DNA of 64,000 nt. It comes from Thalassobacillus devorans MSP14. Lineage in GTDB: Bacteria; Bacillota; Bacilli; Bacillales; Halobacillaceae. Below the pieces are notes generated by a model. That model was not told where the DNA came from. It ran no database searches and was given only the letters and a program-made list of their open reading frames with translations. Of the stretch, positions 30,046-32,425 are shown one piece after another (position 1 is the stretch's first letter; each line of letters opens with the position of its first letter). Where the stretch lies: assembly GCF_000496835.1 (NCBI RefSeq), contig NZ_KI543237.1, positions 1,094,641 through 1,158,640 of the forward strand, in the 5' to 3' direction. Made by a program: the position numbers and the translations under genes.

Positions 30046-31630
30046 ATAGTTGTAAACTATGGACTTGGCGAACTTCTTCCATTTGGCTGATTTTATTTGT
30101 ACACGTCTTTTCAAGCGGTTTATCGACAGTCAAAACCATGACAGCGTGTCCGCCAAGGTCGGTACGTCCCACCTGCATGGTTGCAATATTAATATCATCT
30201 TCAGCTAATAAGTTACCGACTTTACCGATTGCCCCAGGCTTATCATGGTGACGTATTACCACAAGGTTACCCGCCGGAAGTACATCGACAGAATATTGAT
30301 CAAGCTTTACAATCCTAGGTCCAAGCCCGTTCAATAACGTACCTGAAACTGATCTCGTCTCTTCATTGGTCTGTATTTCTACGGTAATTAAATTAGTGAA
30401 GCCACGGGAATGGGTAGTCTTTTGTTCATTAATGATAATACCTCGTTCATCAGCTGCCATAAAGGCATTAACTTCATTGATCCGCGACCCGAGATGGAGC
30501 CGCAAAATCCCCTTCACCGTATTCCTTGTCAGTGGATTGGTTTGGTGGTCTACCAGCTCACCCGCATAATAAATATTGATTTTCTCCAATACTCCCCTGG
30601 TCAAATGCGATATGAATTGCCCCAGCTTTTCTGACAATGTGAAATAAGGAGCCAGTTGATCCATTACTTCTTCGGAAACAGAGGCGATATTCACTGGATT
30701 CCGGGCATTACCATCACGCAGAATATGAACGATATCCTTACTGACATCAACAGCGACGTTTTCCTGGGCTTCAATCGTGCTCGCTCCTAAATGAGGCGTA
30801 GCAATGACTTCATCCAGTTCCAGCAGCTTATGACCGATGGCAGGTTCTTCTTCGAATACATCCAGCGCAGCACCTGCAATCTGCTTATCAACAAGGGCGT
30901 CATATAAGGCGTCTTCATCAATGATTCCGCCACGGGAACAGTTGACGATTCTCGCTGATGGCTTCATCAGTTGGAAGGCCTCCCGGTCAATCATGTGTCT
31001 CGTTTCTTCCATTAATGGTGTATGGAGCGTAATAAAATCACCTGTTTTTAGAACTTCCTCTACACTACCGTATTCAACGCCCATTTTCTCAGCCTTCTCT
31101 TTCGTCAGGAATGGGTCATAAGCGATAACATTCATCCGCTGACCTTTCGCACGACGGGCTACCTCCGCTCCAATCCGGCCAAGGCCTATAATGCCGAGGG
31201 TCTTATCTTTCAGTTCGACGCCAATCATCGCTTTTCTTTCCCATTTATCTTTACGTAACAGGTTATAGGCCTGTGGAATATTCCGAGCTAAAGACATTAG
31301 CATGGCCATCGTATGTTCAGCAGCTGAGATGGTATTTCCATCTGGAGCATTGACGACTATCACTCCATGTTCGGTTGCTGCATCTAAATCAATATTATCC
31401 ACTCCGACGCCCGCTCGTCCAATCACTTTCAAATTCGGCGCCGCTTCGACAATTTCCCGGGAAATACGCGTTTGACTCCGTACAATCAAAGCATCCACAT
31501 CATTCACTTTTTCTAAAAGTTCTTCATGCTGCATCCCCGGGGTATTGATAACCTCAATATCTTCTGCATCCTTCAATGGTGTGAGACCCTCTTCACTTAA
31601 GGGGTCACAAATCAACACACGAAAACTCAT
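30044..31630 (-). CDS. serA: D-3-phosphoglycerate dehydrogenase
   Basis: The ATG at 31630 follows AAAGGAG; 18 further upstream codons are unlikely. The 528-residue protein is the long SerA type: catalytic and NAD-binding domains (1-315, with [13 protein letters not shown], and the HLGAST histidine), an intervening domain, and a C-terminal ACT domain (about 453-528) for serine feedback. It starts serine synthesis by oxidising 3-phosphoglycerate. It is monocistronic, ending at a shared terminator. A perfect Noc palindrome lies within its coding sequence. Confidence 0.97.
31452..31465. promoter_or_regulatory. Perfect Noc-binding palindrome inside serA
   Basis: ATTTCCCGGGAAAT is identical to the Noc-binding sequence of Bacillus. 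noc is encoded about 10 kb away. Noc bound to such sites blocks division over the nucleoid. Confidence 0.7.
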
Positions 31631-31757
31631 TAGCCTGTCTCCTTTCATTCCTGTACCGGATTTCCCTTCAGTAATTTCCATCACTAAAGTAAATAATATT
31701 TTCTATCCTAACAAACCATCCCTATTTGTCAATCTATTCAAACAACTCCTTTTTCTT

Positions 31758-31771: not shown

Positions 31772-31900
31772 TGGTTTTCATTGCAACATTATACTTTTTT
31801 TATTGATGGTTGATTTTAAAAAAGGCATATTCAACTATATGGCCGGATTATGGAAGACTCAGTTTCAAGATAAGGGGTTCTTTATCATAAAAGCGTCAGG

Positions 31901-32019
31901 GGTGGTTTGGAAACTACTCGCTTTCCTGCGGGGGACCTGGCGAGCTTCCTCGGGCTATCGCCCTGTGGGATCTCGCCTAACTCCTTCTCCCGCGGGAGTC
32001 TCGCAGTTTCCCTACCACC
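31901..32019 (-). repeat. GC-rich structured repeat, copy A
   Basis: The ends pair with each other over about 15 bp (GGTGGT and GGAAACT parts identical). Read on the minus strand it shares CGAGACTCC, GAGATCCC, GAGGAAGCTC and GGAAAGCGAGT in order with copy B. It is much more GC-rich than its flanks. I recall similar dispersed repeats in other Bacillaceae genomes but cannot confirm it here. Confidence 0.75.
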
Positions 32020-32160
32020 CCATCCGAAGGATGGGAGAAACGAACCCCTGCATACATGAAGATGTCTTCCAAATTCACCGCCAAACAAGGCCTCTTTGTA
32101 GCTATTAGTATGATTGGATGACTCTGCTTGCCAATGTTTCCGTTTCTCTTATAGACGTAA

Positions 32161-32279
32161 GGAGGGCCGGGAAATTACGAGACTCCTATGGGAGGATAGG
32201 ACATGGTGAGATCCCGCAAGGCGGAGCCTGAGGAAGCTCACCGTCCGCCCATGGAAAGCGAGTGATTTCCCGGCCCTCC
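32161..32279 (+). repeat. GC-rich structured repeat, copy B
   Basis: A perfect 15-bp inverted repeat, GGAGGGCCGGGAAAT (32161-32175) with its complement at 32265-32279, closes the unit. It is 119 bp, the same length as copy A, and lies in the opposite orientation. Differences between copies A and B at several stem positions are matched on both sides, which hints at selection on structure. Confidence 0.75.
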
Positions 32280-32370
32280 AAACCGTTACTATCGTAACGG
32301 AAACAATGTATCTCGAAACTGAGTCTTCTGCAATTGGGAGCTTAACTGTAAGATGATTTTTTCCAGAGGC

Positions 32371-32417
32371 AAAAATAAAAAACCTCTGACAGAAGGATAA
32401 ATCCTTCGTCAGAGGTT
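32371..32417 (-). terminator. Terminator of the rpsF-ssb-rpsR operon
   Basis: AACCTCTGAC (32381-32390) pairs with GTCAGAGGTT (32408-32417), with an inner AAGGAT/ATCCTT stem, followed on the minus strand by a T run. It starts 9 nt beyond the rpsR stop codon. Confidence 0.9.
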
Positions 32418-32425
32418 TTGGTTGC

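Follow-up and report, generated by a model that had tools for sequence, protein, structure and literature searches.

Mobile insertion cassettes, or MITEs with passenger genes, are a known class of non-autonomous element, and ISL3-type elements are recognised by their ends and by an 8-bp target duplication. Typical MITEs measure 70–300 bp in the part of the literature drawn on here (PMC3733652). In REPINs and BIMEs, which are associated with RAYT genes, the dispersed unit consists of two inverted structured repeats, according to the parts of the two sources used for this comparison (PMC3116915, PMC3733652). Dispersed stem-loop repeats have also been described as bcr1 in the Bacillus cereus group and as Bhal-1 in Bacillus halodurans, the latter listed at 74 bp and 36 copies (PMC2267715).

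The element analysed here lies in a 64,000-nucleotide stretch of the Thalassobacillus devorans MSP14 genome (the window) and is very likely a copy of a non-autonomous, MITE-like DNA transposon, as indicated by the ends, the 8-bp target duplications, the many copies, an empty orthologous site and the absence of a coding frame. It shares with ISL3-type MITEs the lack of coding capacity, terminal inverted repeats starting GGCTCT, an 8-bp AT-rich duplication and many intergenic copies, and three ISL3 copies of a relative (G010) have comparable ends. However, it is longer than a typical MITE and carries a conserved folded doublet, no ISL3 transposase was found in its own genome, and its unit is found in distant genomes also within other ends. 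It resembles REPINs and BIMEs in that the dispersed unit is a pair of inverted structured repeats in a genome with a RAYT-type gene, whereas the unit is about 102 nt rather than 20–40 bp long and the element has 8-bp target duplications; by eye, no REP-type tetranucleotide tag was recognised in the unit. With bcr1 and Bhal-1 it shares the character of a dispersed Bacillaceae stem-loop repeat, a comparison made by description, and Bhal-1 may equal part of the unit. As in mobile insertion cassettes, the ends of the element also enclose other cargo (L251 and L253), but the cargo here is a pair of DNA hairpins and not a gene. No description of the unit was found in a literature search whose coverage excluded most subscription papers. 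The kind of element is known (a MITE), the variant is new as far as this search reaches, and the element is a real and widespread mobile element.

The whole paired-hairpin element occupies approximately 31800..32370, with eroded ends whose positions were set by eye from flanks aligned with other copies and from the complete copies L032 and L142. It lies between serA (start near 31630–31684, minus strand) and a terminator-like repeat behind rpsR of rpsF–ssb–rpsR (minus strand), the names serA, rpsF, ssb and rpsR having been recognised by eye. This repeat, a perfect 12-bp inverted repeat located by inverted-repeat search at 32379..32419 (no strand assigned), adjoins the element from outside and is the probable intrinsic terminator of the rpsF–ssb–rpsR operon. 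The preliminary description had delimited 476 bp (31853..32328) by a 20-bp inverted repeat taken as terminal. From direct reading, this repeat is at 31853..31872 on the plus strand (GAAGACTCAGTTTCAAGATA) and at 32309..32328 on the minus strand, and both sides are kept in most aligned copies of the same genome. The repeat is subterminal instead, as complete copies end in GGCTCTGTTAAA and TTTAACAGAGCC with 8-bp target duplications; homology of the aligned copies extends past 31853..32328, and the 476 bp form the interior of a copy of about 570 bp. Target duplications flanking the 20-bp repeat, which is internal, were looked for by eye and none was recognised. At the right end of the window copy, TTTCCAGAGGC at about 32360–32370 is the degenerate counterpart of TTTAACAGAGCC, and at the eroded left end a remnant of ..TTGTTGATTTT.. 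is all that is left (both by eye). Because the left end is lost and the right end degenerate, no target duplication can be read in the window copy.

Module A with its nested arms (GGAAGACT ... GTCTTCC, then GGGGTTC/GAACCCC, then the unit) was read directly at 31852..32070 on the plus strand. Module B with its arms (GTTTCCGTT/AACGGAAAC, then GGAGGGCC/GGCCCTCC, then the unit) was placed by direct reading and inverted-repeat search at 32115..32328 on the minus strand, its inner border being approximate. Covariance model R1, built from a unit family that includes the two window units, identified the structured hairpins as unit A at 31909..32012 on the plus strand (105.6 bits, E 4.9e-34) and unit B at 32169..32270 in the opposite orientation, on the minus strand (111.4 bits, E 5e-36). 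Two 119-bp units arranged head-to-head had been proposed: the two related, opposite units stand, and the length is revised, since the conserved part is about 102 nt and the longer nested arms are less conserved. In agreement with the composite reading, a single dispersed structured unit is present twice in the element. The nested inverted repeats reported for the 476 bp are present far beyond chance. The 476-nt strand folded at −242.7 kcal/mol compared with −151.9 (sd 6.4) in 100 shuffles (z −14.1), and the opposite strand gave z −15.9. Two frames cross the element, one of 187 aa antisense into serA and one of 67 aa; both are spurious, in agreement with the claim that no coding frame explains it.

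Searches for other copies showed that the locus is far from unique. A search with the 476 bp, in which 40 of 111 candidates were scored, matched many places in the same genome. At least 56 loci were collected there in all, and each of the 56 examined held at least one unit (104 units in total). About 100 matching pieces each were present in three of the four same-genus genomes, and the fourth (G004) had one weak piece. Within the family, 40 of 44 genomes matched the element, the own genome counted. In NCBI the genus belongs to Caryophanales, formerly named Bacillales; the order referred to below is the order-level grouping of the search itself. In a sample of that order a covariance model with rough E-values matched the unit in 233 of 299 genomes, which represent 95 of the 117 genera sampled; up to 13 candidates were scored per genome, and the copy numbers are lower bounds. 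A plasmid search returned a single weak match (Peribacillus muralis), and a phage search returned no match to the element.

The borders of the element were taken from complete copies, which read GGCTCTGTTAAA..TTGTTGAT..core..ATCAACA..TTTAACAGAGCC and are flanked by an 8-bp AT-rich target duplication. Their terminal inverted repeats are GGCTMTGTTWAA and TTWAACAKAGCC, which are eroded in the window copy, and complete two-unit copies measure from 606 bp (L142) to 735 bp (L250, including a nested insert). Perfect 8/8 duplications were identified by script for nine elements (L032, L058, L066, L142, L249, L250, L251, L254 and L283), eight of which contain the hairpin unit, L251 being the exception; L126 and L252 had 7/8 by script. 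When 1.36 Mb of locus sequence was scanned for end motifs of at least 10/12 with a duplication of at least 7/8, five end pairs were returned, all of which were copies of the element: L032, L058, L066 and L142 with perfect duplications and L126 with one mismatch. A search of nine genomes with the left end alone found eight places, of which five had perfect duplications (L249, L250, L251, L254 and L058), two had 7/8 (L252 by script, and L082 by eye because the script missed its damaged right end) and one failed (L253). The relative of module A that occurs alone at L032 is a complete 334-bp element with a perfect 8-bp duplication, and a perfect duplication also flanks L283, a single-unit element of 184 bp in another family.

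The ends were decayed in most copies. Duplications were scored in the 40 of 204 clusters that possess both end motifs; three perfect duplications were found among these 40 copies compared with 0.1 expected from shuffled pairing, and a duplication of at least 6/8 was seen in 6 of the 40 copies with both end motifs at 9/12 or better. The ends were also seen around other sequences. L251 (1099–1791, reverse strand) is a 693-bp AT-rich element with matching ends and a perfect 8-bp duplication and without the hairpin unit, and at L253 the two ends enclose a TIGR04104 zinc-ribbon frame, with no duplication. Two plasmid loci (L258 and L259) have the left end followed by a carbon–nitrogen hydrolase gene and a hypothetical gene. 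In the distant families represented by L275, L276 (G302) and L279 (G245), units lie inside other ends, by eye GGCTGGGACAAAA..TTTTGTCCCAGCC or a near variant, which suggests a second type of carrier; for some further distant-family units no ends were recognised.

Empty sites were found in sister genomes. The L003 insertion is missing at the orthologous intergenic site of G001, G002 and G003, where the aligned flanks are 76–90% identical, and comparison with G001 gives AAACCTTT and AAAACTTT as the eight bases that flank it (by eye). The L037 site has no element in G001 and G004, and G002 and G003 have elements in the corresponding gap. Together with the ends and the 8-bp target duplications, these sites bear out the mobile-element reading, in the form of a non-autonomous element. 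At the window locus itself, G001 retains just a short remnant, the G003 copy has an internal deletion and the copy in G002 belongs to another subfamily; in G004, serA was not found in the 1.5 kb fetched beside rpsR. We also considered the outer shell as an older, independent repeat with exchangeable cores; by exact pattern, a coreless shell occurs once in five genomes, at the window locus of G001, and this reading was dropped, so that a deletion between short direct repeats is preferred for the G001 remnant. A deletion explains the G001 coreless shell as well as an empty site does.

Ends together with 8-bp duplications are the mark of a DDE transposon. A DDE transposase with ISL3-type ends would move the element in trans. 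In G010, three ISL3 copies lie beside T tracts and have the ends GGCTCTAGAATATTTGTTG, which are similar and not identical to those of the element; IS6-type ends, which resemble GGCTCTGTTGCAAA, were a further candidate. The ISL3 transposase (PF01610) was not found in the own genome or elsewhere in G000–G005, and 8 of the 44 family genomes had a match. An ISL3 element as the present-day partner was rejected, since PF01610 was not found in the own genome and the G010 ends are similar but not the same, and the element may be dormant there. In the fetched loci, no transposase lay between element-type ends flanked by a duplication, ISL3 ends having been determined for the G010 copies. Nine plasmids matched a left-end query at E ≤ 1, several of them probably by chance, and the five that were inspected had no transposase with the ends of the element.

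The unit folds into four nested helices with conserved internal loops, and its pairing was examined in two sets of sequences. Set A1 was obtained from 276 full-length, N-free units of 90–125 nt, reduced to 45 below 90% identity. Set A2 comprised 25 units from other families (matches at E ≤ 1e-10), aligned by fitting to the model structure; the 20 distant loci behind them had been reduced to 18 by leaving out L271 and L276 as near duplicates. In A1, 94.4% of the cells pair and 109 both-side changes were counted, compared with 33.8 (sd 4.6) in shuffles, none of 500 being as high; when the partners were slid by 1–3 columns, the both-side changes fell to 3–12. In A2, 95.8% pair and 88 both-side changes were counted, again with 0 of 500 shuffles as high, and the slid versions gave 8–24. 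The suggestion that differences between the two units are matched on both sides of the stems is therefore borne out by the 45 representative units, and the check for covariation in homologues found compensatory changes in both sets. Further types of pair showed no excess over shuffles, which were as high in 449 of 500 for A1 and 256 of 500 for A2. In the 45 divergent units, some of the columns that vary little or not at all are unpaired bases of the internal loops, and the same holds in the other families.

Across A1 and A2, 197 cells changed on both sides, and G-U pairs made up about 1% outside one fixed pair. A1 had 13 G-U compared with 26 A-C when the fixed U-G pair was excluded, and A2 had 3 G-U compared with 9 A-C after 25 fixed U-G cells were set aside. 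RNA helices normally pass through G-U intermediates, and this scarcity would thus point to maintenance of the pairing in DNA. We infer that the unit folds as DNA rather than as RNA, the G-U deficit alone being no proof. A structured RNA transcribed between serA and rpsF–ssb–rpsR had also been suggested for the locus, and more generally the unit could be a transcribed RNA, such as a bidirectional terminator, a stabiliser of mRNA 3′ ends or a regulatory RNA, spread by transposition. Its very stable fold and conserved internal loops would suit such a function, as would the position of the intergenic copies in the own genome, where a simple ORF rule classified 52 of 56 loci as 30 tandem, 17 convergent and 5 divergent. 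Against it, the 197 both-side changes are nearly all Watson–Crick with few G-U and no G-U excess over A-C on the modelled strand, the flanking sequences, when aligned, vary from one copy to another, and Rfam 15 had no match to the window either at the gathering score or up to E 1. A transcribed RNA is therefore quite improbable.

A profile HMM made from 45 representative units was applied to the loci of the own genome, to 80 named Halobacillus and Thalassobacillus loci and to 20 distant loci, the named set being 80 of the 97 stretches that matched one unit pattern and not a random sample. All 129 two-unit clusters were tail to tail (+−), comprising 47 of 47 own, 78 of 78 named and 4 of 4 distant clusters, and the same loci held 44 single units (10 own, 19 named and 15 distant). 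The 129 pairs are all distinct in sequence; L199 has overlapping units and is doubtful. A BLAST-based count that covered more loci found the +− arrangement in 149 of 162 cases, with 10 ++ and 3 −−. L277 (897–1675) has four units in tandem in one orientation and is the sole non-inverted cluster in the profile count.

Partners within a doublet were less alike than expected. After near copies were removed (46 doublets reduced to 19, and 63 to 26), partner identity was 0.692 compared with 0.757 for random pairing in the first set and 0.719 compared with 0.761 in the second, and 0 of 5000 shuffles were as low in either. We interpret the difference as a sign that long, nearly perfect palindromes are avoided. 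Part of the unlikeness could come from founder effects, with descent from a few original doublets, despite the prior removal of close copies. Homogenisation of the arms inside one element was rejected, as partners less alike than random are the opposite of what it predicts. The same results bear on another account, in which the element is an ordinary decayed repeat whose palindromy is a by-product of inverted duplication and template-switch correction of the arms, with a functionless fold. Arm correction also gives pure Watson–Crick covariation, and internal deletion forms as expected of unstable palindromes exist (L051 and L080). However, arm correction does not explain the conserved unpaired loop bases, invariant or nearly so in the 45 divergent units and in other families, and partner units are less alike than random; a decayed repeat with a functionless fold is accordingly unlikely.

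The inverted doublets found in all 129 two-unit clusters would also be expected of a very large REPIN, moved as folded single-stranded DNA by a RAYT protein in trans. The own genome has a RAYT-type gene, a 205-aa frame scoring 80.2 bits for NF047646 against a cut-off of 80. Matches to Y1_Tnp, IS200-type included, were found in 33 of the 44 family genomes, which had a median of 119 first-look repeat candidates (n = 33) compared with 16 in those without a match (n = 11). In the order sample, NF047646 (E ≤ 0.001) and the unit occurred together in 156 genomes, the unit alone in 77, the gene alone in 31 and neither in 35, giving an odds ratio of 2.3 (p 0.004, uncorrected for phylogeny). Yet the 77 genomes without a gene match are among 233 that bear the unit, and NF047646 exceeded its curated cut-off in just 67 of 299 genomes. 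G003 is repeat-rich without a Y1_Tnp match, and G004 is the reverse. No copy lay within about 3 kb of the gene in 18 of 20 Y1_Tnp loci, including that of the own genome, L117 being shortened by a contig end; REPINs and BIMEs differ in this respect as well. The unit is much longer than a REP, and the ends with 8-bp duplications are not those of Y1 chemistry. RAYT was thus rejected as the mover on its weak association in the family, order and flanking tests and is retained as a rival with a low probability. The single RAYT-type gene of the own genome (L101, 2707–3321, minus strand) overlaps the start of a neighbouring frame that we take to be ComM/YifB-like.

Spread by a DDE transposase remains the preferred reading, and the cargo is a hairpin module of about 102 nt, present as an inverted pair and conserved across the order. 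For this hairpin we propose roles at the DNA level. The module may act as folded single-stranded DNA, as a hairpin or cruciform in replication or transposition, a role that we advance tentatively; a putative protein would read the conserved internal loops (TCGCTTTCC/GGAGTCTC and CCTCCTCG/CTGCGGGGT), and the module would be kept for this reason. RAYT is the most obvious candidate for this reader, although its association with the unit is weak. The two units would have to stay unlike because a near-perfect palindrome of about 500 bp would be lost. More speculatively, a DNA-hairpin module found across the order, recognised in its folded single-stranded form by a putative host or transposon protein, would ride on several types of non-autonomous transposon ends. 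It would be used chiefly as a tail-to-tail heterodimer, and keeping the two arms different would protect the giant palindrome from loss; such a system would be REPIN-like, several-fold larger than known ones and spread by DDE transposition. The interest of the element lies in a folded sequence matched in most sampled genomes of an order (233 of 299) without an Rfam match or a found description, and in DNA-type covariation combined with an orientation free of exceptions among the profile-counted two-unit clusters. It raises the questions of which transposase moves the element, which protein reads the folded DNA and how cells tolerate dozens of long near-palindromes.

The copies are themselves sites of rearrangement. 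A second hairpin of about 116 bp lies in the conserved CTCGCTTTCC loop in 16 of 40 aligned own copies (among them L005, L007, L009 and L013), and in 6 of the 40 (L010, L012, L037, L038, L039 and L040) the GAGACTCC loop of unit B contains an extra piece of about 57 bp that includes a short hairpin. Since copies show insertions, some of them nested, as well as internal deletions and one intron-like insert, the element probably seeds genome variation. In L094 the second hairpin of about 116 bp is located in unit B. Unit B is interrupted by group II intron-like sequence in L083 and by insertion sequence-like DNA in L088 (both by eye), and L250, from another genus, has an apparent diverged relative of the 116-bp hairpin at the matching position (by eye).
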